Positions 1-27,620 of a DNA stretch of 64,000 nucleotides are shown one piece after another. Origin of the DNA: Candidatus Gastranaerophilales bacterium (GTDB lineage: Bacteria; Cyanobacteriota; Vampirovibrionia; Gastranaerophilales; Gastranaerophilaceae); the NCBI GenBank assembly GCA_017402995.1, contig JAFQOV010000009.1:1-64000 (forward strand), written 5' to 3'. The position numbers and the translations under genes were made by a program. The notes under the pieces are model-generated. The model ran no database searches. It had not been told where the DNA came from and was given only the letters and a program-made list of their open reading frames with translations. Each line of letters begins with the position of its first letter. The first letter of the stretch is position 1.

Positions 1-1
1 T

Positions 2-661
2 GCAAAAGAAAATGTTGAAACTACAAAGACAACAGAGCTTGAAAAAGCAAATGAAGTTGTTACAACAAAGCAAACTGAATTGAATGATATTGTGAAGAAG
101 TTAGATGAAGCAAAAGCGAAAGAGATTGAAAAAGAAAATTCAGTTTCTAACTTTGACTTTGATTTCGACGAAAAATTAATCGGCAATCAAGCCGCAGATT
201 TAGAAAAATTCAAACAACTTTACGCACAAAATGAAGCAAAATATAAAGAAGTTGAAAGACAAACAGGCGTTCCAGCAGAACTTGTTGCAGCACTTCACTG
301 GAGAGAATCTGGCGGAAACTTTAATACATACTTGCACAATGGCGACCCACTAGGCAAACCAACAGTCCATGTTCCAAGGGGTGTAATGTTCAACGATTGG
401 ACAGCAGCAGCAGTTGACGCCTTGAAAAACCATGGTGGCGATATTTCATCAATCGACAAAAATGACGTCAAAACATATTATGAATATGCAGAACGCTACA
501 ATGGACTTGGCTATCGCAACAAAGGCGTACCTTCGCCTTATGTTTGGGCAGGCACGACAAACTATTCAGGCGGTAAATATGTCGCAGACGGCGTTTACGA
601 CCCAAATCATGTCGACAAGCAACTTGGTGTTGCGATAATGTTAAAAGCATTAATGAGTTAG
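2..661 (+). CDS. Lysozyme-like / phage-type peptidoglycan hydrolase, 5' partial
   Basis: The reading frame is open to the left window edge, so the N-terminus is missing; a TTG at 80 is only an internal codon. The first 60 visible residues are Lys/Glu/Thr-rich and probably coiled coil. The C-terminal ~130 residues carry VPAELVAALHWRES, then HNGDPLGKPTVHVP and a Trp/Ala-rich helix, a pattern I associate with phage- and cell-wall-associated lysozyme-like domains; the Glu of HWRES is the likely catalytic acid. A role in peptidoglycan cleavage is inferred from this resemblance only. Upstream domains cannot be judged. Confidence 0.6.
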   Translation, partial: AKENVETTKTTELEKANEVVTTKQTELNDIVKKLDEAKAKEIEKENSVSNFDFDFDEKLIGNQAADLEKFKQLYAQNEAKYKEVERQTGVPAELVAALHWRESGGNFNTYLHNGDPLGKPTVHVPRGVMFNDWTAAAVDALKNHGGDISSIDKNDVKTYYEYAERYNGLGYRNKGVPSPYVWAGTTNYSGGKYVADGVYDPNHVDKQLGVAIMLKALMS

Positions 662-704
662 TTAAATTTCTTAAAATATCGTTTCTTTTTTACAAAGATA
701 ATGT

Positions 705-710
705 TATAAT
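705..710 (+). promoter_or_regulatory. -10 box for rimP-nusA
   Basis: A perfect TATAAT lies at 705-710, 89 bases before rimP. No clear TTGACA-type -35 is visible at the usual spacing. A transcript from here would start near 717 and cross the hairpin at 748-784 before reaching rimP. Confidence 0.45.
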
Positions 711-747
711 TAAACACGTGAAAAGTTCACAACTAGTTTAATATTTT

Positions 748-784
748 AAAACTAGAACGCCCTAATTTAGAGCGTTCTAGTTTT
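748..784 (+). terminator. Hairpin in the rimP leader (terminator or attenuator)
   Basis: A 13-bp perfect stem (748-760 with 772-784, AAAACTAGAACGC) closes an 11-base loop and is followed by TATATAA. It ends only 14 bases before the rimP ATG, so most rimP transcripts must read through it. It may terminate the upstream gene, attenuate rimP-nusA, or both. Confidence 0.6.
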
Positions 785-798
785 ATATAAGGACAATT

Positions 799-1308
799 AT
801 GAGAGAATTTAGCAAACGAGAAGTCATTGAAACTATTGAACCTGTCATTGAAAACACAGCAATGCGTTACGGTTTAATTCCGCTTGAAGTTTCACTAGAG
901 CGCGAAAATAACCGTTGGTTTTTAAGAATTTTCATTTATTCAACTGCTCACAACGTTTCACATCAAGATTGCGAAAATATGTCGCGCGGTCTTGGTGATA
1001 TGCTAGATGAATTAATACCTTTCAAATATTATCTTGAAGTATCTTCCCCTGGGCTTGATAGAAAATTTAAATCAGAAAAAGAATATATTATTTTCAAAGG
1101 ACATGATGTCATTATCAAACTTAAAAATTCAATCGAAGAAACAAAAGACAAGACATTTGAAGCAAAATTACTTGATTATAACGAAAGCTTTGGAGTTAAA
1201 GTCGAATTAAATAATCAAGAAGTTATAATCCCAATGGAAAAAATCCATTATACAAAATTGAACGATAAAATTAACATAAATAAAAATAAAGGAGAAGAAA
1301 ATGATTAA
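799..1308 (+). CDS. rimP: Ribosome maturation factor RimP
   Basis: A 169-residue protein of normal RimP length. The N-terminal alpha/beta domain has the family pattern YGLIPLEVSLERENNRW followed by LRIFIY and the LEVSSPGLDR motif (about residues 80-90), then a short SH3-like C-terminal domain. RimP assists late 30S subunit assembly. An AAGGA ribosome site sits 6 bases before the ATG. The 3' end overlaps nusA by 8 bases, the classical rimP-nusA arrangement, so the two are probably translationally coupled. Confidence 0.95.
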   Translation: MREFSKREVIETIEPVIENTAMRYGLIPLEVSLERENNRWFLRIFIYSTAHNVSHQDCENMSRGLGDMLDELIPFKYYLEVSSPGLDRKFKSEKEYIIFKGHDVIIKLKNSIEETKDKTFEAKLLDYNESFGVKVELNNQEVIIPMEKIHYTKLNDKININKNKGEEND

Positions 1309-2536
1309 AATCGGAACCGCTTTATTTGAAGCAGCAGAACAATTTGAACGCGAAAAAGGCATTTCAAAAGAAGTTTTAATTTCATCACTTTGCGACGCGT
1401 TAGCTGCAGCATATAAAAAACATATTAAAGACAAAGACGCAACAAATGTTGAAGCAATATTAGACGAAGAAAACGGCGAAATCGGCGTATTTAGAACAAA
1501 AGTTGTTGTTGAAAGCGTTGAAGATGAAAATACTGAAATTTCATTGGCAGATGCTAAAGATATCGACGAAGACGTTGAATTAGACGACGAAGTTAAAATC
1601 GAAGTGACACCTGAAAACTTTGGCCGTGTTGCTGCGCAATCTGCAAAACAAGTTATTACTCAAAGAATTAGAGAAGCTGAAAGAAAAATCGTTTTAGACG
1701 AGTTTATGTCTAAAAAAGGCACTTTAATTACAGGTATTATCCAAAGAAGAACAGATAGAGCTGTTATTGTTAACATTGGCAAAACTGACGCAATTATGCC
1801 ATCTCGCGAACAAATCCCAGGCGAATATTACAAACCTGGAAACCGTATCAGAGTATTTGTTTTAGACGTTAAAGAAACTTCTAAACTTCCTCAAGTTATT
1901 GTTTCACAAGCTCACGCTGAAATCGTTAGAGAATTATTTGAACTTGAAGTTCCAGAAATCGAAGACGGCATTGTTGAAATCAAATCAATCGCTCGTGAAG
2001 CAGGCTTCAGAACAAAACTTGCTGTTTGGTCAAACGACCCTTCAGTTGACTCTGTTGGTGCTTGTATCGGACCTCGTGGTACTCGTATTCAAACAATTGT
2101 TGGCGAATTGAAAAATGAAAAAATTGATATCGTAAGATATTCACAAGATCCTGTTGAATATATCGTTAACGCTTTATCTCCAGCAAGAATTATCTCTGTT
2201 GATATTTTGGCTGACGAAGAAGATAGAAAAGAAGCTTTCGTTATCGTTCCAGATGACCAATTATCTTTGGCTATTGGTCGCGAAGGTCAAAACGTACGTC
2301 TTGCACACAGATTAACAAATTGGAAAATTGATATTAAATCTGAATCTCAAGCAAGAGAACTAGAAAACAGAAACGTAGATAACCAATATGACGCTTCTGA
2401 AATTGAATCTTGGGAAGATGAAGAAGAACTAGATGAAATTGCAATGGAAGCAATGGAAGAAACAAACCAAATGGGATTAGACGAAGAAGACCAAGAAATT
2501 GAAATCCCAGAAGAAGAAACTCAAGACGAAGAATAA
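1301..2536 (+). CDS. nusA: Transcription termination/antitermination factor NusA
   Basis: 411 residues. Order: N-terminal RNA-polymerase-binding domain (about 1-130), S1 domain (about 135-200, GTLITGIIQRR), KH1 (about 225-290, GPRGTRIQ) and KH2 (about 305-345, LAIGREGQNVRLA). The tail after residue 350 is very acidic (repeated EDE/EEE) and replaces the Gammaproteobacterial AR repeats. NusA binds RNA polymerase, modulates pausing and promotes hairpin-dependent termination. It starts inside the end of rimP with a GGAGAAG ribosome site. A strong terminator follows. Confidence 0.97.
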   Translation: MIKIGTALFEAAEQFEREKGISKEVLISSLCDALAAAYKKHIKDKDATNVEAILDEENGEIGVFRTKVVVESVEDENTEISLADAKDIDEDVELDDEVKIEVTPENFGRVAAQSAKQVITQRIREAERKIVLDEFMSKKGTLITGIIQRRTDRAVIVNIGKTDAIMPSREQIPGEYYKPGNRIRVFVLDVKETSKLPQVIVSQAHAEIVRELFELEVPEIEDGIVEIKSIAREAGFRTKLAVWSNDPSVDSVGACIGPRGTRIQTIVGELKNEKIDIVRYSQDPVEYIVNALSPARIISVDILADEEDRKEAFVIVPDDQLSLAIGREGQNVRLAHRLTNWKIDIKSESQARELENRNVDNQYDASEIESWEDEEELDEIAMEAMEETNQMGLDEEDQEIEIPEEETQDEE

Positions 2537-2546
2537 AAAAATAATT

Positions 2547-2572
2547 AAGCGAGCCAAATGGCTCGCTTTTTT
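2547..2572 (+). terminator. Rho-independent terminator of rimP-nusA
   Basis: Nine-bp stem AAGCGAGCC / GGCTCGCTT (2547-2555 with 2560-2568) with an AAAT loop, followed by a T run to 2572. It lies just after the nusA stop. Confidence 0.93.
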
Positions 2573-2589
2573 GATATAATAAAAATATG
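2572..2589 (+). promoter_or_regulatory. Extended -10 abutting an ATG (candidate leaderless start)
   Basis: TGA-TATAAT with the hexamer at 2575-2580, then six bases, then the ATG at 2587. No ribosome-binding sequence fits between. Transcription would begin at or next to the start codon. Confidence 0.5.
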
Positions 2590-3468
2590 GCAAAAGTTGT
2601 TTTAGTTGGATATGGTGAAATGCTTTATTCCTTAATTAAAGGAATAAAAAATTCAAACCACGAAATCCTTGGTGTTTTAAGAAGTGAGCGAATAAGGTAT
2701 AATTCTTTTCAACTTTTTTTTAAAGATATTTTTGCACCATCACAAGACTATTCAATTATAAAATCTTTTCAACTTAAAGATATCAAAGCAAACAGCGTCA
2801 ATGATAAAAAATTTATCAAACAAATTAAAAAATTAAACCCTGATTTAATTATTGTTGGCTCTTGGGGCGAAAAATTTAAAAAAGAAATCCTCAAAACTGT
2901 TCCTTGTATCAATTTTCACCCTGCGCTTTTACCAAAAAACAGAGGTGCCAACCCTTATTTTTGGGTAATCTACAACAATCAAAGCGTCACTGGTTTATCT
3001 GCCCATTTTATGAACGAAAAGTTTGATAAAGGCGATATTATTTTGCAAGAAGCTATCACAATAGCGCAAAACGAAACAGGAAAAAGTTTAAAACAAAAAA
3101 CGACAAAACTAGCGCAAGCCATGGTTAAAGATGTGCTAGATTTATTTGATAAAAAACAAATTCAACCAATAAAACAAGACGAAAAATTTGCAACATATGA
3201 ACCTCAAATTTCACAAGAAAACGTTGTAATTGATTTGAATAAATCTAAAGAAGAAGTCTCTCGCCACTTAAGAGCGCTTTTTCCTTGGTCTGTTCCATAT
3301 GTTAAGGTTTCAAATCAATACATCAAAATTAGAAATTTCAAATTTTTAGAGCTAAATGAAACAACAAAAAATGAAAAGCCATATACAATTGTTGAAAACA
3401 CAAACAGCTATATAACCTTAAAAGGCAATGGGTTTTTGCTTAAAATAGCTAAACATAATACTTTTTGA
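2587..3468 (+). CDS. Formyltransferase, methionyl-tRNA formyltransferase-like
   Basis: 293 residues, slightly shorter than typical Fmt (about 310). The catalytic triad of the N10-formyl-tetrahydrofolate transferase fold is visible: Asn109 and His111 in INFHPALLP, and Asp147 in FDKGD. RG(A)NPYFW follows the loop as in Fmt. The C-terminal part (IDLNKSKEEVSRHLRALFPW, about 215-235) resembles the Fmt tRNA-binding domain. It may be the organism's only Fmt or a paralog formylating a sugar nucleotide; no other fmt is in the window. It is flanked by the nusA terminator and the lpt operon and appears to be transcribed alone. Confidence 0.72.
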   Translation: MAKVVLVGYGEMLYSLIKGIKNSNHEILGVLRSERIRYNSFQLFFKDIFAPSQDYSIIKSFQLKDIKANSVNDKKFIKQIKKLNPDLIIVGSWGEKFKKEILKTVPCINFHPALLPKNRGANPYFWVIYNNQSVTGLSAHFMNEKFDKGDIILQEAITIAQNETGKSLKQKTTKLAQAMVKDVLDLFDKKQIQPIKQDEKFATYEPQISQENVVIDLNKSKEEVSRHLRALFPWSVPYVKVSNQYIKIRNFKFLELNETTKNEKPYTIVENTNSYITLKGNGFLLKIAKHNTF

Positions 3469-3483
3469 TTTATCTTTTTGTAC

Positions 3484-3489
3484 TATAAT
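3484..3489 (+). promoter_or_regulatory. -10 box for the lpt operon
   Basis: TATAAT at 3484-3489, preceded by a T-rich stretch but no convincing -35. The AGAGAGA ribosome site of lptB follows 11 bases later. Confidence 0.4.
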
Positions 3490-3511
3490 TATCATAAAAA
3501 GAGAGAAAAAT

Positions 3512-4252
3512 ATGAGAATAATTACAAAAAATTTAGTTAAAATATACGGCGATAGATCTGTTGTAAATGATGTATCTTTTGATGTTAACAAAGGCGAAGT
3601 CGTCGGTCTTTTAGGTCCAAATGGTGCTGGTAAAACAACTACTTTTTATATGGTTGTTGGGCTTGTTAAAGCAAACAAAGGACAAGTTTTATTGGAAGAT
3701 GATGACAAAAACATTATTGACATTACAAATTTGCCAATGAACGAGCGTGCGCGCCTTGGAATTGGCTATTTGCCTCAAGAAACGTCTATTTTTAGAAAAT
3801 TAAACGTCGAAGACAATTTAAAACTCGTTTTAGAAATGAACGACAAATTAAATCAAGAACAAAAAGATGAATTACTAGAAACTCTTTTAGAAGAGTTTGG
3901 CGTCAAAAAACTAAGAGCAGCCTCTTCTGTTGCGTTATCTGGCGGTGAAAGAAGAAGGGTTGAAATCGCAAGAGCACTAGCTGCAACTCCATCATTCATT
4001 TTACTTGACGAACCATTCACAGGGATTGACCCAATTGCAATCGGTGAAATTAAAGAAAACATTTATAAGCTTGCAAAAGAAAAAAATATCGGCATTTTAA
4101 TTACAGACCACAACCCAAAAGCAACTCTTTCAATTACAGATAGAGCAAATGTTATTTTTGATGGCAAAATTAAAATTTCTGGCAAAAGTACAGATGTTGC
4201 TGTTGACCCTGTCGCAAAAGAGTTCTACTTAGGCAAGGATTTTACACTGTAA
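3512..4252 (+). CDS. lptB: LPS export ABC transporter ATPase LptB
   Basis: 246 residues, normal for LptB. Walker A is GPNGAGKT at 35-42, the Q-loop YLPQE at 87-91, the signature LSGGERRR at 142-149, and Walker B FILLDEPFTGIDP at about 162-174. LptB hydrolyses ATP at the inner membrane to extract lipopolysaccharide for transport to the outer membrane. The stop overlaps the next start by one base (TAATG), tying it to the adjacent LptF/G-type permease. Its presence indicates a diderm envelope. Confidence 0.95.
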   Translation: MRIITKNLVKIYGDRSVVNDVSFDVNKGEVVGLLGPNGAGKTTTFYMVVGLVKANKGQVLLEDDDKNIIDITNLPMNERARLGIGYLPQETSIFRKLNVEDNLKLVLEMNDKLNQEQKDELLETLLEEFGVKKLRAASSVALSGGERRRVEIARALAATPSFILLDEPFTGIDPIAIGEIKENIYKLAKEKNIGILITDHNPKATLSITDRANVIFDGKIKISGKSTDVAVDPVAKEFYLGKDFTL

Positions 4253-5379
4253 TGGAGTTAATAAACAAAATTAAAAACTATAAAATCACAATGCTTGATA
4301 AATTCATTTTATCTCAAGTTTTTGTTGCAACTTTAGTTTGTTTATTTTTGTTCATTATTGTTTGGATTGCGCCAGAAACACTTTTTAAAATAATCAAAAA
4401 AATCTTAAGAGATACCTACACTCCACTTTTTGGACTTAAAGTATTAATTTTAGAAATTCCAAAAGTACTAGCTAAAGCAATCCCTGTCGGCATTTTGCTT
4501 GGTTCAATTTTCACATTCGATAGATTATCAAAAAACTCAGAACTTAGCATTTTAAGAAGCATAGGCATTTCTTTTAACAGAATTATGGCGCCAGTCATTG
4601 TTTTAGGCGCTGTTTTGTCAATTTTTTGCTATTTCGTAAACGACAAACTTGTTCCAATCGCGAGTCAAAAACTCGGCGAAAGCAAAGGTGGCGGCAGCCA
4701 TTTTGTATATATCGTTGAAAACCCTGACAAAACGCCAAAACAAAACATTATTGTTTCAAATTTCACCCCAAAGGAAATTTTTAATATAACAGTAATGAAC
4801 TTTGCAAAAGAAACCTATACAGACGCCATTTTGTTTGATAGCATTGTTTTTGCGCCAAACGCGCACGTTGAAAAAAACTCCTGGGTTTTATCTGACGCAC
4901 TTATATATAAAATTGACGAAGACGGTATTTATACAAATATTCAACGCGCAGAAAAATATCCGATTTTAACAGAAGGAAACCAAGCCAAAGATGTCTTTGA
5001 TTTGATGTTGAATAATACAAGAAAAGAACGCGTTTTCACAAATCATCAAATTTCAAAATATTCAAAACTCTTAAAAAGAGCTAATTTTTCAGATGAATAT
5101 CGATATTTTAAAGCAAAACTTTACCAAAGATATTTGCACCCATTAACTTGTATTCTTTTTGCAATAATTGGTTGTTTGCTTGGTTTTGCACCGCCAAGAA
5201 GCCAAAGACTTGTCGGTTTCACAATTGCTGTTGGTATGATTTTTGGATATTATATTACGCTTCCATTTTTTGACTTATTAGCTCAAAAAGCCGTTTTACC
5301 GCCATTTATCGCAGCAGCTTTCCCAATAATTTTGTTTATTGTTTCAATTTTTATAATCAAAAAAGTAAAGGACTTATAG
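4252..5379 (+). CDS. LptF/LptG family permease
   Basis: 375 residues of the YjgP/YjgQ family. Three N-terminal membrane segments lie at about 16-38, 60-82 and 103-122. A periplasmic jellyroll-type domain of about 130 residues follows, and three more segments lie at about 295-375. It forms the membrane channel of the LPS extraction complex with LptB. Only one permease gene is present here, so the organism either uses a homodimer, as in cyanobacteria, or has a second gene elsewhere. It overlaps lptB by one base and abuts the next gene. Confidence 0.9.
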   Translation: MELINKIKNYKITMLDKFILSQVFVATLVCLFLFIIVWIAPETLFKIIKKILRDTYTPLFGLKVLILEIPKVLAKAIPVGILLGSIFTFDRLSKNSELSILRSIGISFNRIMAPVIVLGAVLSIFCYFVNDKLVPIASQKLGESKGGGSHFVYIVENPDKTPKQNIIVSNFTPKEIFNITVMNFAKETYTDAILFDSIVFAPNAHVEKNSWVLSDALIYKIDEDGIYTNIQRAEKYPILTEGNQAKDVFDLMLNNTRKERVFTNHQISKYSKLLKRANFSDEYRYFKAKLYQRYLHPLTCILFAIIGCLLGFAPPRSQRLVGFTIAVGMIFGYYITLPFFDLLAQKAVLPPFIAAAFPIILFIVSIFIIKKVKDL

Positions 5380-6180
5380 ATGAAAAAATTTTTCGCTATA
5401 TTGACAATGTTTGTTTTCTTTTGCTCAAATGCTTTTGCAAAAGAAGAAATCGAATTTCAAAACCCACAAGCTGGTGTTTATATTTTCAAAATCAACACTA
5501 AAAAATATGGCGACAAAATCAAGCCTTATATGAGCACAAAATTAAAAACACCAAGAAGAATATACAAGGACAACTGTGTTCATTTAGTTGTTAACGGTGG
5601 TTTTTTTGATATGGAAAACGGAAAAAGTGTTTCTTATGTTGTGATTAACAACGAAGAAGTATCTGAAATAGATAAAAATATCACTTTTTTAGAACAAATT
5701 AAATCCGAAAACAGACTTGAAAACGTCTTAAATCGTGGCGAATTGAGAATTTTAGAAAATAAACGCGGAAAATTAAAGTTTGATATCGCTTTTCATAATG
5801 ACCCAATTAAAAAAGGCTACAAAATCAAACACTCTTTGCAAGCTGGTCCAACAATGCTTCCAACAATGGATTTAGTCCAAGAGGGGTTTGTAAAATATGA
5901 AGAAGGAATGGTAAAATTCCAAAGTGCAGATGTCCTTAAAAGGCGCGAAAGAACGGCTATCGGGCTTAAAGGAAAATATTTATACATAATTCTTTTCACA
6001 AAAGAACACAAAGCAGACATTAATGAACTAAAAAATTATATTCAAAAAGAACTCAAAATCAAACGTGCACTAGCGTTTGACGGGGGTTTATCAACAGCGT
6101 TTAACTACAAAAATTTATCTGTTGGTTCAGTTGGAAAATACCAAAGAAGAGTTAAATCGTTTTTGATTATTGAAAGGTAA
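5380..6180 (+). CDS. Exported phosphodiester glycosidase (NAGPA-like)
   Basis: 266 residues with a signal peptide (about 1-20, ending in AFA). The NAGPA/DUF2233 fold motifs appear in order: VNGGFFD (about 70), QAGPTML (about 152), RTAIGL (about 190) and AFDGGLSTAF (about 228). The family cleaves phosphodiester-linked sugars. Sitting directly after the LptF/G gene with no gap, preceded by AAGGA, suggests a periplasmic role in envelope glycan processing; that role is inferred. Confidence 0.8.
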   Translation: MKKFFAILTMFVFFCSNAFAKEEIEFQNPQAGVYIFKINTKKYGDKIKPYMSTKLKTPRRIYKDNCVHLVVNGGFFDMENGKSVSYVVINNEEVSEIDKNITFLEQIKSENRLENVLNRGELRILENKRGKLKFDIAFHNDPIKKGYKIKHSLQAGPTMLPTMDLVQEGFVKYEEGMVKFQSADVLKRRERTAIGLKGKYLYIILFTKEHKADINELKNYIQKELKIKRALAFDGGLSTAFNYKNLSVGSVGKYQRRVKSFLIIER

Positions 6181-17599: not shown

Positions 17600-18973
17600 A
17601 TGTACAATGTTGCAATCGTTGGGGGTGGCCCTGCTGGTATTTTCACTGCTTTAGAAATCACCAAACTTAAACCAGATTGGAAAGTTTTATTAATTGAAAA
17701 AGGCAGAAGAATTGAAAAAAGAATTTGCCCAATCAGAGAAGGTCAAAAAAAATGTTTAAGTTGTAAAACTTGCGGACTTCTTTGCGGTTGGGGCGGAGCA
17801 GGTGCTTTTTCTGATGGTAAATTAACCCTAACTCCCGAAGTTGGTGGACACTTAGTTGACTATATGTCATACAACGAAGTTGAAAAACTGATTGAATATT
17901 GCGATAACATGTATCTTGACCATGGCGCAACGAAAACAGTTTTTGGCAGAAACAGAGAAGAATTTGCCGACATTGAACATGCAGCAACTTTAGCTGAATT
18001 AAAACTTGTGCACTCCCCTGTTCGTCACTTAGGAACAGAAAAATCTCTTGCGGTTTTAAAATCTATGCAAGATTATCTTGACTCAAAAATTGATATCATA
18101 AACAACGAATATGTTGATGAATTAATCATTGAAGATAACAAAATTAAAGGCTTTACAACAACTCAAGGAAAAGAATATTTAGCAGATTACGTTGTTGTAG
18201 CTCCTGGCAGAGAAGGTGCAGATTGGTTATCTAACCAATTCTTAAAAAACAAAATTCACATGGTTAATAACGCAGTTGACGTTGGTGTTCGTGTTGAACT
18301 TCCAGCGCCTGTTATGGAGCCAATCACATCAAGATTATATGAATCAAAATTAATCTACCACACTCCAACATTTGGTGACGAAGTTAGAACTTTCTGTATG
18401 AATCCAAATGGCGAAGTTGTAAACGAAAACTATAACGGCATTTCAACCGTTAATGGACACTCTTATGCAGATAAGAAAACTCCAAATACAAACTTTGCAC
18501 TTTTAGTTTCTAAAAAATTCACAGAACCATTCCACGAACCAATTAAATATGGTCAACATATCGCTTCTTTGGCAAATATGCTTGCTGGGGGCATTTTGGT
18601 TCAAAGATTTGGAGATTTAGTTGAAGGACGTCGTTCAACTCCACAAAGAATTAAAGAATCAATCATTAAACCAACCCTAGAATGTGCTACTCCTGGGGAT
18701 TTGAGCCTAGTTTTACCATATAGACAACTTTTAAGCATTATCGAAATGATTTATGCTCTTGATAAAATCGCACCAGGCGTTGCTTCAAGATACACTCTTC
18801 TATATGGTGTTGAAGTTAAATTCTACTCTGCAAGAGTTTTAATTTCAAACGAACTTGAAACAATGGGAGTTAAAAACTTGTTCGCAATCGGCGACGGCGC
18901 TGGCGTTACAAGAGGTTTAATGCAAGCAAGTGCCTCTGGTGTCCATGTTGCAAGGGTTATCGCTGGAAGATAA
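17600..18973 (+). CDS. FAD-dependent oxidoreductase (COG2509-type) with Cys cluster
   Basis: 457 residues. The N-terminal FAD-binding Rossmann motif is VAIVGGGPAGIFTA (4-17) and an FAD-contacting GDGAG lies near 434. Between them is a Cys-rich segment (C43, C52, C55, C58, C62: CLSCKTCGLLCGWGG) that looks able to bind an iron-sulfur cluster or zinc. The family is widespread and of unknown substrate. AGGAAG lies upstream of the ATG; the gene appears monocistronic and ends at a bidirectional terminator. Confidence 0.85.
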   Translation: MYNVAIVGGGPAGIFTALEITKLKPDWKVLLIEKGRRIEKRICPIREGQKKCLSCKTCGLLCGWGGAGAFSDGKLTLTPEVGGHLVDYMSYNEVEKLIEYCDNMYLDHGATKTVFGRNREEFADIEHAATLAELKLVHSPVRHLGTEKSLAVLKSMQDYLDSKIDIINNEYVDELIIEDNKIKGFTTTQGKEYLADYVVVAPGREGADWLSNQFLKNKIHMVNNAVDVGVRVELPAPVMEPITSRLYESKLIYHTPTFGDEVRTFCMNPNGEVVNENYNGISTVNGHSYADKKTPNTNFALLVSKKFTEPFHEPIKYGQHIASLANMLAGGILVQRFGDLVEGRRSTPQRIKESIIKPTLECATPGDLSLVLPYRQLLSIIEMIYALDKIAPGVASRYTLLYGVEVKFYSARVLISNELETMGVKNLFAIGDGAGVTRGLMQASASGVHVARVIAGR

Positions 18974-19365: not shown

Positions 19366-19686
19366 ATGTACGACATAAAGAAAATATTTGCCAAAAACAT
19401 AAAAAGACTTAGAAAAGAGCGCAATTTGACGCAAGAGCAATTTGCGGAAATCGTTGGCGTACAATGGAAAACTGTTGTAAATTTTGAAGCTGGGAGAAAT
19501 TTGGCTAATTCTGAAAACATGCAAAATATTTGCAACAAATTAAACATATCACCATATGAATTATTTTTGACATCGAATGAAGAAAAATGCGATATTAAAA
19601 ATCAAATCAACTGTGAATTAGAAAAATTAAACACCAAAGAATTAAAAAGAATTTTAAAAATAATCAAAGCCTTAAACAACGATTAA
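19366..19686 (+). CDS. XRE-family transcriptional regulator
   Basis: 106 residues. The N-terminal Cro/C1 helix-turn-helix occupies about 7-65: IKRLRKERNLTQEQFAEIVGV, then WKTVVNFEAGRNL and the closing helix ICNKLNISPYELF. The C-terminal ~35 residues are a charged helix likely used for dimerisation. No ribosome site is clear. It may control itself and the divergent small gene. Confidence 0.88.
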   Translation: MYDIKKIFAKNIKRLRKERNLTQEQFAEIVGVQWKTVVNFEAGRNLANSENMQNICNKLNISPYELFLTSNEEKCDIKNQINCELEKLNTKELKRILKIIKALNND

Positions 19687-19696
19687 TCAATTTCCA

Positions 19697-19714
19697 TGAT
19701 AAAATTAAACCATG
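19697..19714 (+). promoter_or_regulatory. Extended -10 abutting an ATG (candidate leaderless start)
   Basis: TGA-TAAAAT (hexamer 19700-19705), six bases, ATG at 19712; no ribosome site. Confidence 0.5.
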
Positions 19715-20446
19715 CAAAAAGATATTATCGCCTTTTGGGGTTATCCAAGAAAAGAATTGATTAATGAATATAAAACAATCTATCCAAACGCTACTTGGAT
19801 AGATTTAGATATTGATTACAATTACCCCAATTTAAAATTAGTACCAGATAATTATTGCACCATAATTAAAAACATTTATAACAACGCATATTATTTAAAA
19901 GATAGAATTATCGCAATTTTAGCACCAATTGGCAAAGACAAATGCGACAGCGCATTTTTTGTGAGCGAAATTTTAAAACAAGATGGCTTTAAGGTTGTTC
20001 AAAGTATTTTTGAAGACAAATGTCCAAACATTAACGACTTAAATCTGCCAATCAGCCAAAGCAATTTGCCATTAAAAGAAAAAATTAATTTAATTACAAA
20101 AAATATTTATGAGCAAAAAGACTATTCTTATCTTGAAAAAGCAAAACCACAATTTGGCTTTTGGGGCGTACCGCCAAATGATTTATCTATTTTAGATATT
20201 TTTCCAAATAACACCGAGCTTTTTGGCTGGACAAGAGCAGTCGAGGCGGGATATCCTGGAGATTTTGAACTTGAAATGTATGTTGATGAAAATTTACCAA
20301 CAATATTTTTCACACAAGCTTTTTGCTCTAAAACACAAATTGCGCGCCACCTAGCAAACAAATATAATGGGCTTTTTATTGATATAGATACCATTCCAAC
20401 CAATTCAATAAAAGCAAAAATTGAAGCGTTTTTGAGGTTGAGATGA
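19712..20446 (+). CDS. Unknown protein paired with a dehydratase-activase-type ATPase
   Basis: 244 residues that I do not recognise. There is a weak internal repeat: IIAFWGYPRKELI near the N-terminus and FGFWGVPPNDLSI near residue 150, each followed by a short hydrophobic strand, suggesting two related alpha/beta lobes. Cys occur at about 50, 90, 115 and 208. The stop overlaps the following activase gene by ATGA, so the two proteins are probably made together. By analogy with 2-hydroxyacyl-CoA dehydratase and benzoyl-CoA reductase systems it could be the activase's target, but no iron-sulfur ligand pattern is clear. Confidence 0.6.
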   Translation: MQKDIIAFWGYPRKELINEYKTIYPNATWIDLDIDYNYPNLKLVPDNYCTIIKNIYNNAYYLKDRIIAILAPIGKDKCDSAFFVSEILKQDGFKVVQSIFEDKCPNINDLNLPISQSNLPLKEKINLITKNIYEQKDYSYLEKAKPQFGFWGVPPNDLSILDIFPNNTELFGWTRAVEAGYPGDFELEMYVDENLPTIFFTQAFCSKTQIARHLANKYNGLFIDIDTIPTNSIKAKIEAFLRLR

Positions 20447-21099
20447 TTAAAAGATATATTGACGCAGGAACAACTTGGACAAAAATCTTAGAAATCCAAG
20501 ACGGGAAAAAAGAATATAAGGTTATTTCGACCGCAGAATTTCGCAAATTAAATTTAGATTATGAAAAATCAACAGGTCATAGCCTAGACAAAATCAAAAA
20601 CAAATATGAAAACGAAGTTGTAGCGCTTTCATATGGTGCTAAAAAATATTTAGAAGATGATTTTATAGCTCTTGATTTAGGCTCAAGAGATATTAAATAT
20701 GTCAAATTTCAAAATAAAAAATTTAAAGATATGGATTGGAACGCAAGTTGCGCAAGTGCAACGGGCGCAACGGTTGAAATGCTTTTAAAATTTTATGATG
20801 TTGACATCAAAAACTTAAAATATACCCCCGAAAAATATGCTGTTACTTGCGGAATTTTTGGTTTAGAAAAAATTATGGACGACGTTTCAAAAGGCTTAAA
20901 CCCAGAAATTGCAATTTCAAAATTTATCCATGGACTTGCATATAATGCCTATAATTTTACAAAAAACCCTGAAAAAATCTGCATTTCTGGCGGTTTTTGC
21001 GAAAATGATTGCTTTATCGAAAGCTTAAAACAATACTGCGAAGTTTTGCCTTTGGGCAGATTTATCCTTGTAGATGGGTTATTAGAAATGGAAAACTAA
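20443..21099 (+). CDS. BadF/BadG/HgdC-family ATPase (acyl-CoA dehydratase activase-like)
   Basis: 218 residues, shorter than HgdC (about 260). The ASKHA-fold phosphate loops are DAGTTWTKIL (7-16) and ALDLGSRDIKYV (76-87), with ISGGF near 187. Cys103 (NASCASATGATVE) and Cys136 (AVTCGIFG) correspond to the two Cys that in HgdC hold one [4Fe-4S] cluster between two subunits. The family couples ATP hydrolysis to low-potential electron transfer. No dehydratase or reductase subunits are present here, only the unknown 244-residue partner. The stop overlaps converging cheA by four bases. Confidence 0.8.
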   Translation: MIKRYIDAGTTWTKILEIQDGKKEYKVISTAEFRKLNLDYEKSTGHSLDKIKNKYENEVVALSYGAKKYLEDDFIALDLGSRDIKYVKFQNKKFKDMDWNASCASATGATVEMLLKFYDVDIKNLKYTPEKYAVTCGIFGLEKIMDDVSKGLNPEIAISKFIHGLAYNAYNFTKNPEKICISGGFCENDCFIESLKQYCEVLPLGRFILVDGLLEMEN

Positions 21100-24000
21100 G
21101 GAAGAATTTCTTCGATTGTTTTTATCAATTCTTCTTGTTTGAATGAATTTTTTTGAATATATTTAGAAACCCTTGCATATTCCATATCTTGAATATGATT
21201 TTCCATTGGCTCAGACGAAACAACAATCACTGGGATTGTTTCGTAGTTTATAATTTTTCTTAATTCGCCAATAAATTCAAAACCGTTCATATGTGGCATT
21301 TGAATATCAGAAATTATTAGGTCATATTTGTTATTTCTTGCTTTTTCAAGCGCAATTAGTGGATTTGTCGCTGTTGAAACGTTATATCCTTTATTGACCA
21401 AAATATTTTTTTGCAAAATTCTTGTTGTGTGCGAATCATCAACGACTAAGATTTTTTTATCTAGATGTTCTTGCGCGCGAATAATGCCATTTTTGCTGAT
21501 AATTTTCATGCCAATCTTTCTTGAATTGATTGTTGAAATAATATCACTTGATGATAAAATCAAGCAAGCTTCGCCATTAGCAAGCGTTGTAATGCCTGAA
21601 ACATGTTTAATTTTATATAATGGTGGAGATAATTTTTTGTGGACAATTTCTTGGTCAGATACCAATTTTTCAACAATAATCCCGCAAGTGCCGTTTTCTG
21701 TTTCAATTATCATCAACGTATATTTAAGAGCTTCACGTGGTTTATTTGCAAAGTTTAAAATCTGAGACAAGGTATAAATTTCTATTGCCTCATTGTTATA
21801 AATATAAAAATTCTTTTCGTCTTTTTCAAAAATATCATCAGGATTAACCCTAACAATAGTTTTAATTACAGACGTATCTATCGCAAAAAGTTGCTCTTGC
21901 TCTTGAATAATGAACACTTTTCTTGTTGCAACAGTTGCTGGCAAAGTTATTTGCACAACTGTTCCTTGGTTTAATTGCGAAAATACGTCTACTCTGCCGT
22001 TTAATTGATTAATTTTGTTATTTACAATATCAAGCCCCAAACCGCGACCAGAGAGCTCTGTTACAAAATTTTCTGTTGAAAATCCAGGATAAAATATCAA
22101 ATTTGTCAATTCTTCATCACTAATTGCAGAGATTTCTTCTTGGGTCAAAAGCTTCTTCTCAAGCGCTTTTTGCTTGATTTTTTCAATATCTATCCCTCTG
22201 CCATCATCTTTAACACTAATGATAACTTTATTATCTTTATATTTTGCCTCAACTTCAATTCTACCAACAGGGTTTTTGCCAAGCTCACGGCGCGTTTGCG
22301 CATCTTCAATCCCATGATCAATTGCATTTCTAATAATATGAATTAAAGGAATTTTTATTTCTTCAATAATCGTTTTGTCGGCTGAAACCTCGGCGCCTTT
22401 TGTAACAAAGTCAATTTTTTTATTTTTATCGCGTGCAATGTTGTGCACCATTCTTGGAAACAATTGGAAAATAATTGAAAGTGGCAAAATTCTCATGTTT
22501 TTAACCATGTTTTCAATCTCTGTTGTTGTTGAATTAAGCTGACTTTCGCTCTCTTGCAACTGTTTAAATAAGTTTTGCACTTCTTTTAAAATATTTGAAA
22601 CATTTTCAATGTGCATTTCGCTTAATGCGCTCAATTGCTTGTTATATGAAACAATTTTTCTATAATCCTGATTTTCGCGCATTGGGTCAGACAAATATTT
22701 TTTATCAAAATATTTGATATAATAATTCATTTTCACAAAGTTTTTTTGCCAATCAACAATATCAGAATTAATCTTTTTAACAAGAGACAGTTGTTCATTT
22801 GTCTTAATTTTTGAAACAATCAATTCTCCGATTTGTCCAACCAAATTATCAAGCTTGTTTGAGTCAATTCTAAGGGTTTTAATTTCTGAATTTGTAATCG
22901 TATTCAAAATATCTTTTTGCGTTTGTTCAAGATTGACCTCTTTAACTTTTTCGTTTTGTGGCTTAAAATTTGCCATAATCTTGATTACATCAGATTTTTT
23001 ATGTACTTCTTGAATTAATTTAATATCGTTTGTTTTAATCGCTTCAAGCGTTTCAACAAGCCCCATTGAAACATCTTTTGGGATTGGTTTTTCTTTGTTT
23101 TTGTATATTTTTAATAAATCTAATACATTTTTATAAACTTCTTTGATTTCATCATCTTGAGCGCTCAAAAATACTTTATTTACAAGCAATAAAACCTCAT
23201 CAAAATGATTTTCGCTGACTTCAAGAAGAGAAACTCTTGCGATAATTTCATCAATTTCGTTTAGTTTAATATCTTTTGGGTTAATTGTTGTTACTTCATT
23301 TTTAGAATTTAATTTCTCATCAACAATCTCGTAATAGTTTTGTTTTTTAATTTTTTCCCCATCAAACAGAGCGCAAAGCATCTCAATCAGGCGAGAAACC
23401 GTCGAATTAACATCTAAAAAAACAAATTCTTTATTTTCTTGAACTTTAAATTTATCTAAAGCCGTCAAAACATTTTGAGCACAGTTGTTGATTGAAAAAA
23501 TTTTTTCGCTTTCAATATTTCTAAAAATATCAACAAGCTTGTTTATCTTAAATTCAATCTCATAAATGTCCGAAAAAACATTTCTACTTCTTGCATCTGA
23601 AACTATATATAAAATATCAATTATTATCTGCTCAATTCTATCCAAAACAGGCAAAAGCTGCTTTTTGAGCGGGGTATAGTCTTCTTCTTTTTCTTCAATT
23701 TCTTGTTTTTGATTTACAATATTTTCCAATTTTTGAATATATTGACCAATTTCATCACTTTTAAATTCTGTCTTGTTTTCAACAGTTTTATTAATCAAGC
23801 CCATAATAAAATCAAGACATTCCGAAATTGTATCTGTGACAGTATTTGTGACTTGAAGCCCATCTTCTTTAATGAGGCTTATGACATCTTCAATTTTGTG
23901 TGCAATATTTTGAATGTCATCAAAACCAAGCATTCTAGCCGAGCCCTTCAATGAATGGGCGTCGCGAAACAACTGCATTGCAAGCTCTGGAGATTTTTCT

Positions 24001-24104
24001 TTTTCAATTGCAAGCAATTTTTCATCCATAGAAGCAATAATTTCAGCACTTTCCTGCTGAAAAATATTTAATATTTCATTCAATTCATTTTCTTGAAATT
24101 CCAT
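21096..24104 (-). CDS. cheA: Chemotaxis histidine kinase CheA with C-terminal receiver
   Basis: 1002 residues. Domains: HPt with phospho-His50 (FRDAHSLKGSARMLG); a long Lys/Glu-rich linker of about 280 residues; dimerisation helices (about 405-540); HATPase with N box HIIRNAIDHGIED, DDGRGID and GRGLGL (about 560-705); CheW-like regulatory domain (about 710-850); and a receiver (about 880-1002) with phospho-Asp in LIISDIQMP. The CheA-receiver fusion is frequent in cyanobacteria. Partners alongside are an MCP, a receiver protein and a tandem CheW; no cheY, cheB or cheR is in the window. Confidence 0.96.
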   Translation of the reverse strand: MEFQENELNEILNIFQQESAEIIASMDEKLLAIEKEKSPELAMQLFRDAHSLKGSARMLGFDDIQNIAHKIEDVISLIKEDGLQVTNTVTDTISECLDFIMGLINKTVENKTEFKSDEIGQYIQKLENIVNQKQEIEEKEEDYTPLKKQLLPVLDRIEQIIIDILYIVSDARSRNVFSDIYEIEFKINKLVDIFRNIESEKIFSINNCAQNVLTALDKFKVQENKEFVFLDVNSTVSRLIEMLCALFDGEKIKKQNYYEIVDEKLNSKNEVTTINPKDIKLNEIDEIIARVSLLEVSENHFDEVLLLVNKVFLSAQDDEIKEVYKNVLDLLKIYKNKEKPIPKDVSMGLVETLEAIKTNDIKLIQEVHKKSDVIKIMANFKPQNEKVKEVNLEQTQKDILNTITNSEIKTLRIDSNKLDNLVGQIGELIVSKIKTNEQLSLVKKINSDIVDWQKNFVKMNYYIKYFDKKYLSDPMRENQDYRKIVSYNKQLSALSEMHIENVSNILKEVQNLFKQLQESESQLNSTTTEIENMVKNMRILPLSIIFQLFPRMVHNIARDKNKKIDFVTKGAEVSADKTIIEEIKIPLIHIIRNAIDHGIEDAQTRRELGKNPVGRIEVEAKYKDNKVIISVKDDGRGIDIEKIKQKALEKKLLTQEEISAISDEELTNLIFYPGFSTENFVTELSGRGLGLDIVNNKINQLNGRVDVFSQLNQGTVVQITLPATVATRKVFIIQEQEQLFAIDTSVIKTIVRVNPDDIFEKDEKNFYIYNNEAIEIYTLSQILNFANKPREALKYTLMIIETENGTCGIIVEKLVSDQEIVHKKLSPPLYKIKHVSGITTLANGEACLILSSSDIISTINSRKIGMKIISKNGIIRAQEHLDKKILVVDDSHTTRILQKNILVNKGYNVSTATNPLIALEKARNNKYDLIISDIQMPHMNGFEFIGELRKIINYETIPVIVVSSEPMENHIQDMEYARVSKYIQKNSFKQEELIKTIEEILP

Positions 24105-24119
24105 ATTTTTCTTTTTGCC

Positions 24120-25166
24120 CTATATGGATTGTTTTAGGTCGTTTGAAGTTGTTTCAATTTGTTCAAAAATTGTTTCGTTCTCAATGTTAATTTTGCGGTT
24201 TTCTTCAACCATTTGAGAAATTTCTTTAACATAACCGTCAGTTGAAACGCTATCTTGGTTAATTTGATTTGATGAGAAAATAATTTCTTTCATATTCATT
24301 GAAATTTCGCTCATAGCACCGATTAACTGTTCAATATTTTCACTGATTAAATGTGCCAATTCTAAACCAGATTCGATTTCTTTTGTGCCTTCTTCTGTCG
24401 CTAAAACAGTTGAATTTGCTGTTTGTTGAATATCATTAATCAAAGAAATAATTTTTGTTGTCGCTTGCTTAGATTCATCAGCCAACTTTCTAATTTCAGA
24501 CGCAACAACCGCAAAGCCTTTGCCGTGTTCGCCTGCGCGCGCCGCTTCTACTGCCGCATTAAGCGCCAAAAGATTTGTTTGCTCAGCAATATCTTCAACA
24601 AGACCGACAGTTGAAGAAATTGATTGAACAAAATCTGACAATTCCAAAATTAATTCTGCAATTGTTTGAATTTTATGTCTGATTGAAAACATTTTTTCAA
24701 TATTTGATTTAACAGCGCCATATTCATTATTTGTAAAATTTAATGATTCGTCTGTTTTTTCTTGAGTTTTTGTTATTAATTCCTTCATATCAAAAGAAAA
24801 TTTTTGCAAATTTTCAACAAGTTCTTGAACATTTTTAATTCTAGAACTTGAAACTGCATTTTTTTCTTTTTGTGCAAAATTTTTATTTTGAATTAGGTTA
24901 ATGTCTGTGATTGTTTTATCGGAAGTTGTTGTAATGACATTTTCGATTTTATTTTTAATTGAATTTTTGCTAAATTCAAATGCCAAAAAAGTAACTAAAT
25001 ATAAAACTCCAAGAGTAATACCGAGCTCATAACCGGAAAACTCTAGAAAATGTACAACATAGAAAACAATTGCGATTGTTATAAACAATACAAAACAATC
25101 AATAATTTGTTTTTTTACTAATTCACGATTAAAGCTAATTCTATTATTATTTACTTCTTTTGACAT
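24120..25166 (-). CDS. Methyl-accepting chemotaxis protein without a large sensor domain
   Basis: 348 residues. Two adjacent membrane helices lie near the N-terminus (about 20-40 and 48-68) with only a few residues between them, so no periplasmic ligand domain. No HAMP is obvious. The cytoplasmic coiled coil carries the MCP hairpin tip ([23 protein letters not shown], then [16 protein letters not shown], about 193-240). It probably signals to the CheA 15 bases downstream and may sense a membrane or cytoplasmic state. Confidence 0.93.
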
Positions 25167-25231
25167 ATTCCACCTTTTAATAAAAAATTGTATAATCTAA
25201 TTATAATTAATTATAGTAAATAAGTTAAGTT

Positions 25232-26581
25232 ATGACAAAAAAAGTAATTATAATAGATGATAGTTCGCTTCAATTGAACGTTTTGAAGATGAAATTTTCA
25301 AAAGATTTTTGGCAAGTTCGCATTGTCAAAAATTCTATTGAAGCATATTCAACAATCTATGAAATTGCGCCAGATTTAATCATAACAGACGCTATAATGC
25401 CCCACGTTAGTGGTTTTGGACTTGTTAAAACAATTAGAAATGACGAAAAAATTTCCAAAATTCCTATAATTATTTATAGCGTTTTGCCAGAAAATAACGT
25501 GAAGTTATACCTTAAAAAAGAAAGACCAGAATTTTTCTTTTCAAAAGAAAAAAATGTCGAAGAATTAATCTCTTTTGCGAATGAAACTTGCAAAAAAAAT
25601 CCGCTTCCAGAAAAATATAAAAACGAAATTTTAAATACAAAAAAAGAAAAAGTTGAAGAAAATATCAAAAAAATTGAATCAAACACGGTTAATTCGCTTG
25701 AAAGCATTAAAGAAAAACTCGAACATGTCAACTTTTTAAATGACGATAAAAAAATCTTGTCAGATTGCTTTAATATTCTTTATTCATCAATCGACTACAA
25801 CCTTGCAATTGCCTGCGTGGAAGATGAAGAAGAGGGCAAAACAATCTTTTTTGATATAAGAAATATCATTTTAAGCCCAATTTTACAAAGCACTCTTTTA
25901 AAAGAATATGACGGCAAAACGCCTGTTTTAAACAAACAATACGCGCCAAATTTAAAAATTATTCATTTAAAAGAAGATTTTTCATCAAAAGTTGAGTTTA
26001 ATTTTAATTATTTAGACAAAAACATAGGAAAAATTACAATTTTTTCTCTTAAAACTCATCTTTTAACCAATGAGGACAAGGAGTTTTTAGAAAATATTTT
26101 GTTTAATTTCTTTAGAACAAGATTTGTCAAAAAAAATTCACAAAAAAAGAAAACAGAAAAATATTTCACAAATAACTCCATAAAACTTGAAAAAAATATT
26201 GAAAAGATTAACGAATATAGCGCCTATTGCGCAATTGTCAAAATCGCAAATTACCAAGATTTAGCGGTTTATTTAAGCATTGAAGATATTGATATTTTAA
26301 ATATCAAAATAACTCAAATAATCACTCAATATTTAGAAAATGACGAAAAAATATTTAAAGAAGCAGATGATGAATTTAGCTTGGTCATTTTTGAAAAAGA
26401 AAACGAGCTCGCGCAAAAACGTTTAAAATCCTTAAATGACGCGCTTAACAGCATATCTATTGAAGGATTAAATTTGAAAAGTTTAATTGGGGTGTCAAAT
26501 TGCAATTTTAATGGCAAATTTGACCTGAAAGAAGCACAAAAAACGGCGAGAAAAACGCTAGAAACAATACAAAAACTGTAA
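25232..26581 (+). CDS. Receiver-domain protein with degenerate GGDEF-like C-terminus
   Basis: 449 residues, divergent from the MCP gene. The receiver (1-120) is intact: VIIIDDSS at the N-terminus, phospho-Asp in LIITDAIMP, and a later Lys in FFSKEKN. A middle region (about 160-290) looks like a GAF-type sensor. The last ~150 residues resemble a GGDEF fold, but the motif is reduced to ADDEFSLVIF, so cyclase activity is doubtful. It lies 4 bases before the tandem CheW gene, so it is likely the output or adaptor protein of this chemosensory array. Confidence 0.75.
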   Translation: MTKKVIIIDDSSLQLNVLKMKFSKDFWQVRIVKNSIEAYSTIYEIAPDLIITDAIMPHVSGFGLVKTIRNDEKISKIPIIIYSVLPENNVKLYLKKERPEFFFSKEKNVEELISFANETCKKNPLPEKYKNEILNTKKEKVEENIKKIESNTVNSLESIKEKLEHVNFLNDDKKILSDCFNILYSSIDYNLAIACVEDEEEGKTIFFDIRNIILSPILQSTLLKEYDGKTPVLNKQYAPNLKIIHLKEDFSSKVEFNFNYLDKNIGKITIFSLKTHLLTNEDKEFLENILFNFFRTRFVKKNSQKKKTEKYFTNNSIKLEKNIEKINEYSAYCAIVKIANYQDLAVYLSIEDIDILNIKITQIITQYLENDEKIFKEADDEFSLVIFEKENELAQKRLKSLNDALNSISIEGLNLKSLIGVSNCNFNGKFDLKEAQKTARKTLETIQKL

Positions 26582-26585
26582 AATT

Positions 26586-27620
26586 ATGGATAATTTAGCA
26601 ATAAAAGAAGAAAATAAGTTAATTGAACAAAAAAACGACAAAAATTTCACCTTAATTGAAGTCGATTCTAAAAAATATGCTCTTAAAACAAAAGCCGTTC
26701 AAGAAATCGTAAAAATCATTGAATTTGATTATCCGCTTGAAATGCCAACGTGCGTTTTAGGGCTGATTAAACACGAAGAAAAACCAATCAGCGTCATTGA
26801 TTTAAGAGAACTTTTCAAAAAAGAAAGAATTGTCTACGACACAAATGCAAAAATTATTGTTGCAAAAACTCAAAACGCAACTTTAGCATTTTTGTGCGAC
26901 AAAGTCATAGATATTAAAAAGCTAAACGCTACAAATATTCATAATCTTCCTTTTCAAAAAGAAAACGATTTTTATGATGGAATTTTTATTGAAAACGAAG
27001 AAAATATCTATATTTTAAACGTTGAAAATATCCAAAAATATCTTGAAAATTATAAAGGTGAAATTCAAGATGAAAAAACTGCAAAAAATTTCATTAAAAC
27101 TGACGAACAAACAACGCTAATTTTAAAAGAGCGAAAAACCCTTTTATACCAATACAACAACGATTTAGCGCAAATTGATACACCGCTTTATGACAGAGGG
27201 GTTTCTTTTTCAATTAATGATGTAAAATATTACATTAATCTTGCAAGCATAAAAGAATTTCACAGATTAAACGACCAAAAATTTATCAAAGTGCCAAATT
27301 GTCCTGAATATATCATGGGATTAATTAACATAAAAGGTGATTACATCTGTATTTTAGACATTCGTTCCTTGTATGGCGCTACAAAAACGCAAATCAAAGA
27401 AAAATCAACTTTAATTATTTTAAACTCTGAAGAGTTTAAAATTGGAATTTTAGCAGACGAAATTTGCGAAAATATGAATATAGATTTTGAAGAAATCATT
27501 CAAAACAAAATCCAAAAACAAGAAGATGATAAAATGTTGGAATTTGTGAAAAATGATGAAATTTATCAAATCATTGACACTGAAAAGTTGCTAAACGACA
27601 AGCGTTTGACCATTTGCTAG
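26586..27620 (+). CDS. Tandem CheW-domain scaffold protein
   Basis: 344 residues with two CheW-like domains, about 18-155 (FTLIEVDSKKYALKTKAVQEIV, VLGLIKHEEKPISVIDL) and about 200-335 (YYINLASIKEF, YIMGLINIKGDYICILDIRSL). CheW proteins bridge receptors and CheA; a double domain could cross-link the array. Same operon as the preceding receiver protein. Its stop lies one base from the converging Maf gene. Confidence 0.88.
   Translation: MDNLAIKEENKLIEQKNDKNFTLIEVDSKKYALKTKAVQEIVKIIEFDYPLEMPTCVLGLIKHEEKPISVIDLRELFKKERIVYDTNAKIIVAKTQNATLAFLCDKVIDIKKLNATNIHNLPFQKENDFYDGIFIENEENIYILNVENIQKYLENYKGEIQDEKTAKNFIKTDEQTTLILKERKTLLYQYNNDLAQIDTPLYDRGVSFSINDVKYYINLASIKEFHRLNDQKFIKVPNCPEYIMGLINIKGDYICILDIRSLYGATKTQIKEKSTLIILNSEEFKIGILADEICENMNIDFEEIIQNKIQKQEDDKMLEFVKNDEIYQIIDTEKLLNDKRLTIC

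Follow-up and report, generated by a model that had tools for sequence, protein, structure and literature searches.

The overlapping genes at positions 19,712-21,099 of the window (the whole stretch of DNA that was analysed, 64,000 nucleotides from a Candidatus Gastranaerophilales bacterium) are a real, conserved two-gene system, which probably operates as a very small redox system of the BCR/HAD/DCCP type (benzoyl-CoA reductase, 2-hydroxyacyl-CoA dehydratase and double-cubane cluster protein), with two components, low potential and ATP as the driving force. The upstream gene encodes a protein of 244 residues (A) and the downstream gene an activase-like ATPase of 218 residues (B). Protein A does not have a new fold but belongs to a strongly reduced branch of the BCR/HAD fold, one that the searched libraries miss by sequence.

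Both open reading frames appeared where the first-pass annotation had placed them, and overlap as ATGA, with the ATG of B at 20,443 and the TGA of A ending at 20,446. The draft of the source genome comprises 1.7 Mb in 26 contigs and contains a single match to A. A search among relatives found A in 45 of 58 genomes, its own genome counted. When A and B were compared with those of four close relatives, the differences were mostly silent (NG86 dN 0.15-0.22, dS 0.89-3.9, the dS values being near saturation). Because of this wide retention and the mainly silent-site divergence, the pair is not a product of chance. The positions of the genes and of the residues discussed below are collected in the table.

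Table. Features of the A/B gene pair, in positions of the window
Feature	Positions	Strand	Basis
Gene A: minimal protein of the BCR/HAD fold with 244 residues and one predicted [4Fe-4S] cluster	19712..20446	+	ORF; AlphaFold2 pLDDT 93.5; Foldseek and VIA matches to DCCP, HadC, BzdN, MbdN
First FWG-x-P motif of A (FWGYP, residues 8-12)	19733..19747	+	DSSP strand 5-8; internal repeat test
Cys49 codon of A, predicted cluster ligand	19856..19858	+	Cys in 83/83 rows; aligned with YjiM Cys78
Cys78 codon of A, predicted cluster ligand	19943..19945	+	Cys in 83/83 rows; aligned with YjiM Cys108
Second FWG-x-P motif of A (FWGVP, residues 150-154), closing the first strand of the C-terminal alpha/beta domain	20159..20173	+	DSSP strand 148-152; internal repeat test
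Cys205 codon of A, predicted cluster ligand	20324..20326	+	Cys in 83/83 rows; aligned with YjiM Cys335, C-half score not above null
Gene B: 218-residue activase-like ASKHA ATPase, ATGA overlap with A	20443..21099	+	ORF; TIGR00241 below cut-off; AlphaFold2 pLDDT 90.6; top fold match DCCP-R
Cys103 codon of B, predicted to ligate the cluster that bridges the dimer	20749..20751	+	41/41 rows of alignment A2; Cys in 73/74 rows of a wider set, the rest a gap
Cys136 codon of B, predicted to ligate the cluster that bridges the dimer	20848..20850	+	41/41 rows of alignment A2; Cys in 72/74 rows of a wider set, the rest gaps
Extra Cys186-x3-Cys190 of B	20998..21012	+	Cys in 72/74 and 70/74 rows; not a pair in reference activases

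Protein A was initially described as matching nothing, and the sequence libraries indeed miss it. Pfam and NCBIfam searches returned nothing above any cut-off, the HGD-D family of Pfam was listed for 2 of 46 A members (best E-value 0.065) and not for the A of the window, the double_cubane entry of NCBIfam did not list A, and PDB sequence searches gave no meaningful match. Pfam rows for shikimate kinase and FTHFS were discarded, as they lie below the cut-offs and span 37 and 34 residues, respectively. For profile comparisons we gathered an HGD-D set from E. coli and plasmid records, in which 18 frames matched; after identical frames and those with 250 or fewer aligned residues were dropped, 13 rows remained, with YjiM as the first. 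The N-terminal half of A scored 26.4 against this profile, with Cys49 and Cys78 opposite Cys78 and Cys108 of YjiM, and the maximum of 100 column-shuffled controls was 16.6. The score of the C-terminal half was reached by 8 of 100 shuffled controls, and the relationship of this half is therefore not established by sequence alone; in the same comparison, the score of which is not above the null, Cys205 pairs with YjiM Cys335 and the EAFL end of A with the EAF end of the HGD-D family. Comparison of the full-length profiles gave a probability of 8.9%. We also rejected a relationship of A to the order's own DUF2229-type proteins (hhalign probability below 1% in three runs); at that probability, two of the three runs bring the same cysteines together or near each other.

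What the sequence libraries miss is recovered by the predicted fold, which, together with the cysteines, places A with the BCR/HAD subunits. The AlphaFold2 model of A computed from 46 sequences has a mean pLDDT of 93.5 and a pTM of 0.89. Foldseek found only five matches in the PDB with an E-value of 0.001 or below, namely MbdN (a chain of 3-methylbenzoyl-CoA reductase), three entries of DCCP, and HadC (the beta subunit of 2-hydroxyisocaproyl-CoA dehydratase). VIA-align placed members of the BCR/HAD/DCCP family at ranks 1-9 (Z 14.1 to 11.1, with 226-233 of the 244 residues aligned), and LpxB followed at rank 10 with a Z of 6.4 over 89 residues. The two alpha/beta domains of the BCR/HAD fold are thus present in the model, and no other family stands out. 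As an outcome that would speak against a novel redox pair, the first-pass annotation had named a known dehydratase subunit matching A strongly at the profile level; the profile match obtained here is weak and the fold match strong. Its statement that no dehydratase or reductase subunits lie nearby holds for canonical ones, none of which adjoins the pair in the list of open reading frames between 14,000 and 27,000, but is wrong in substance, because A itself has the fold of such a subunit.

The model of A is short of two elements that dehydratases and class I BCRs possess, the three-helix middle domain and the N-terminal helix. According to DSSP, it opens with a strand (residues 5-8), and a single helix (residues 121-134) lies between the two domains. 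Consistent with this, 83 A sequences span 232-248 aligned residues, in comparison with 373-436 in the nine fold-matched chains. In BzdN and BzdO, the middle domain is described as having three helices and 72-78 residues in all; with the N-terminal helix it makes up a bundle that contributes to the CoA channel (PMC11971306). Since A has no N-terminal helix and only one interdomain helix in the model, a classical CoA site in this protein appears unlikely.

Three cysteines of A, Cys49, Cys78 and Cys205, are invariant among the 83 distinct A sequences. In the printed BzdN alignment, the same columns are occupied by the published ligands Cys73 and Cys100 and, by position in our own counting, Cys327. 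In the DSSP assignment of the model, each of the three cysteines of A either immediately precedes a helix or sits in a strand-to-helix connection. Cluster sites of the BCR/HAD family are formed by strand-helix linkers, and BzdO holds a [4Fe-4S]-OH2 cluster by Cys95, Cys128 and Cys380 (PMC11971306). Judging from the fold and the secondary structure of the model, the three cysteines of A would likewise meet in space. Three invariant cysteines do not amount to the six of the [8Fe-9S] site in double-cubane proteins. Cys176, which is a cysteine in 60 of the 83 rows and an alanine in the window protein, might serve as a fourth ligand in most relatives.

The two FWG-x-P repeats reported in the first-pass annotation are present, and each of them ends strand 1 of one alpha/beta domain. 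The halves of A match each other exactly at these motifs (score 28.5, reached by none of 60 shuffles), a match that we regard as a trace of the two similar domains of the family. Trp151 is retained in all 83 A sequences, and position 9 is a tryptophan in 77 of them. Aligned by eye, FWGYP faces the YjiM stretch around Cys40 and BzdN Cys36, the latter being a ligand of the double cubane. In BzdO one sub-cluster has been lost, and the space is filled by Trp46 and the ring of the substrate (PMC11971306). We propose that a tryptophan may similarly fill the place of the lost sub-cluster in A.

Protein B shows both hallmarks of an activase, the ASKHA fold and the two cluster cysteines, the latter already noted from the sequence at the outset; Cys103 and Cys136 fall in the cluster columns of the reference activases. 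Its match to TIGR00241 (52.4 bits) is below the cut-off of 125.4, and a PDB sequence search with B found the activator of 2-hydroxyglutaryl-CoA dehydratase (E-value 2.8e-08). Among the fold matches of its AlphaFold2 model (pLDDT 90.6), DCCP-R came first (Z 21.0), with the other activases at Z 19.9-20.6 and type II pantothenate kinases next at 17.5. The phosphate loops of the ASKHA family are present, albeit the second reads GSRD in place of the GGQD of most reference activases, with S81 and R82 conserved in all 74 rows. The C-terminus of B also differs from that of the reference activases. The extra CxxxC of B (residues 186-190) lies near the nucleotide-binding GG motif, and could be a redox switch or a second metal site.

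The two genes are inherited together. One draw of 386 genomes from the phylum yielded A in 74 and B (E-value of 1e-30 or below) also in 74, and comparison of the two lists by hand gave 73 genomes with both, one with A only (G395), one with B only (G350) and 311 with neither (Fisher's test, P = 5e-77, a value that ignores kinship). Within the order, taken as 173 genomes (the 169 with a symporter match, see below, plus four non-matches listed among them in a list that runs by kinship), 72 carry both genes, one carries A only, one carries B only and 99 carry neither. B lies downstream of A on the same strand at 74 of the 83 A loci, at a distance of 40 bases or less at all but one of them (L053, 119 bases). 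The remaining nine loci have no adjoining B, and at two of these (L052 and L054) the contig ends within 800 bases. In 19 of the 73 genomes with both genes, A and B are on different contigs, and at four split loci (L082, L086, L095 and L099) at least 7.6 kb downstream of A is free of B; here the two genes are truly apart, yet both have been kept. Mapped on the A tree, the loci whose B lies elsewhere require three changes, so the separation occurred more than once or was reversed. The first-pass reading is supported in that the activase has a dedicated partner from which it is genetically inseparable, and an ATP-driven low-potential redox pair is plausible.

Outside the order, a very diverged A/B pair was detected in one of 18 genomes of another class of the phylum (G069). 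At this locus (L081, contig C106, positions 1-5,386), the most diverged of all, IscU-like and NifS-like genes, named by eye from their translations, lie nearby on the opposite strand, and the first FWG-x-P loop reads FYGCP, with a cysteine inside. A scan of contigs with the single A protein of the window gave 11 loci, all in close relatives, and leaves room for relatives in other phyla. No match was found on plasmids by tblastn with A, nor on viral contigs searched with the A alignment. A search of the literature on dehydratases and activases of Gastranaerophilales/Melainabacteria found no paper on the A/B pair.

The genes around A and B differ from genus to genus, and none of the neighbours at the 83 loci points to the substrate of A. 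A GltP/DctA-like symporter (NCBIfam matches below cut-off) is encoded directly upstream of A in the same direction at 10 of the 83 loci (L024, L048, L050, L063, L065, L091, L093, L094, L096 and L100). We rejected it as a specific partner or a hint to the substrate, because it occurs in 169 of the 386 genomes with or without A and B, and is a general gene of the order. A YraN-type gene follows B within the fetched flank at 10 of the 83 loci. In the window, A is preceded at a distance of 25 bases by a small HTH gene (19,366-19,686; an RstR-like NCBIfam match below cut-off), which is not conserved there in relatives. Further upstream (17,600-18,973) is a gene for an FAD-dependent oxidoreductase with a cysteine-rich stretch (CPIREGQKKCLSCKTCGLLCG), an arrangement seen only within the genus, in several of its members. 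After the pair (21,096-27,620) comes a chemotaxis-like cluster, comprising a 1002-residue Hpt/CheA/CheW/receiver hybrid kinase, a short MCP-signal protein, a receiver protein and a double CheW protein.

Elsewhere in the genome, on other contigs, we found a second, canonical activase (L028, contig C5) and two DUF2229-type proteins (L026 on C22 and L027 on C23). The latter two carry weak HGD-D tails, are more distant, and are encoded apart from A. PF06050 (HGD-D) matches of this DUF2229 sort were obtained in all 39 genomes searched, including those without A and B, and thus belong to a separate system. Dehydratases and class I BCRs have two different catalytic subunits; here one A match was found in the genome, with no second subunit beside it.

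Among known systems, DCCP with its activase DCCP-R (PDB 6eno, 7yyl and 7yzm) and YjiM/YjiL of E. coli resemble A/B in pairing one reductase-type protein with one activase. DCCP is the best fold match of A and DCCP-R that of B, and the first two predicted cluster cysteines of A align with YjiM. Nevertheless, DCCP chains have about 420 residues and a double cubane, whereas A has about 240 residues and three invariant cysteines and is devoid of the three-helix middle domain; the double cubane of BzdN takes six cysteines (PMC11971306). The (R)-2-hydroxyisocaproyl-CoA dehydratase HadBC and its activator (PDB 3o3m, 3o3n and 4eht) are similar in fold to A (Z 13.7) and B (Z 19.9-20.1). HadBC consists of two different subunits, has a CoA-binding middle domain, and works in a pathway with a CoA transferase. 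For A, in contrast, no second subunit, middle domain or family III CoA transferase was found. In HadBC a cluster of the [4Fe-4S] type replaces the double cubane (PMC11971306), and one of this type is predicted for A. Of the BzdNO(PQ) and MbdONPQ enzymes (PDB 8s02, 9g87 and 9gai), BzdO has a single [4Fe-4S]-OH2 cluster on three cysteines accompanied by a tryptophan (PMC11971306), to be compared with the three invariant cysteines and the conserved Trp9 and Trp151 of A. Class I BCRs have a heterodimeric architecture, a CoA channel and two activase subunits, whereas A is a two-domain protein encoded with one activase gene. To our knowledge, TudS, a 4-thiouridine-5'-monophosphate desulfidase, has no activase. 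TudS is, like A, a shortened member of the family with one cluster, but differs from the two-domain A in having one domain, a [4Fe-5S] cluster and an activity of sulfur transfer (PMC11971306).

Activases of this family spend ATP on activating single electrons, which pass to the cluster of the partner protein, and radical chemistry follows there (PMC11971306); by the same mechanism, B should charge the cluster of A. B would act as an ASKHA ATPase dimer, its two chains holding one [4Fe-4S] cluster between them through Cys103 and Cys136, and, on binding and hydrolysis of ATP, would hand single electrons of very low potential to A. In the two-domain alpha/beta protein A, three strand-helix linkers carrying Cys49, Cys78 and Cys205 are predicted to bind a single [4Fe-4S] cluster in which one iron site is open. 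As only one A gene was found, A is most likely a homodimer. With the N-terminal helix and the three-helix middle domain lost, A probably does not act on a CoA thioester bound in the established manner; its substrate may instead be a smaller or protein-bound compound, which would be reduced or reductively cleaved at the cluster.

Could A/B be a degenerate but classical enzyme, a 2-hydroxyacyl-CoA dehydratase or an acyl-CoA reductase, acting on a CoA ester? Both the fold of A and the activase B belong to that family, and the symporter upstream of A at some loci would carry glutamate or dicarboxylates, (R)-2-hydroxyglutaryl-CoA dehydratase being part of glutamate fermentation. The presence of the symporter regardless of A/B takes away from the latter point. 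Dehydratase-type CoA chemistry is unlikely because there is one A-like subunit in place of the two different ones of dehydratases and BCRs, because the middle domain and the N-terminal helix, which in BzdNO contribute to CoA binding, are missing from A, and because family III CoA transferases, which known HAD pathways use, were found in 0 of 57 genomes of the order (a count that does not cover family I); the only genome searched outside the order has one.

Two further roles also deserve consideration. That A is a sulfur- or cluster-handling protein similar to the desulfidase TudS, with B keeping the cluster reduced or repaired, seems quite improbable: A possesses both domains of the fold and TudS one, and 73 of the 74 A-bearing genomes encode the activase-like partner, which a sulfur transferase would not need. 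TudS does offer a precedent, having changed within the family from generating radicals to transferring sulfur (PMC11971306), and the IscU-like and NifS-like genes near the most distant pair would fit such a role. Alternatively, A may carry or store electrons for another enzyme, such as a corrinoid protein or the DUF2229-type proteins encoded elsewhere. The double cubane of BzdN changed from an active site to an electron store (PMC11971306), and the genome does have two DUF2229-type proteins and the second, canonical activase. We nevertheless consider this role unlikely, since the DUF2229-type matches in all 39 genomes, also in those without A/B, indicate that the pair is not needed for them, the B12-binding domains present in 52 of the 58 genomes have no visible link to A, and the three invariant cysteines suggest one open cluster site only.

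Returning to an ATP-driven reductase that acts on its own substrate, we tentatively put forward a more specific proposal, which we hold with some reserve: A/B may be the smallest ATP-driven reductase of the BCR/HAD type, independent of CoA and working with a single open [4Fe-4S] cluster, in which the tryptophans of the two pseudo-symmetric FWG-x-P loops take over the space of the lost sub-cluster and form a pocket for a substrate that is small or bound to a protein. If this is the case, the low-potential chemistry of the BCR/HAD family would not need activation of the substrate by CoA. According to PMC11971306, enzymatic Birch reduction is at present limited by its restriction to CoA esters; the same paper describes the biological role of DCCPs as unknown. 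A family member that keeps the cluster site and the activase, and is devoid of most of the CoA-binding part, would provide a direct model for CoA-free, ATP-driven reduction, and its small size should ease expression. For the Gastranaerophilales, gut relatives of Cyanobacteria, the A/B pair would add an ATP-driven redox enzyme.
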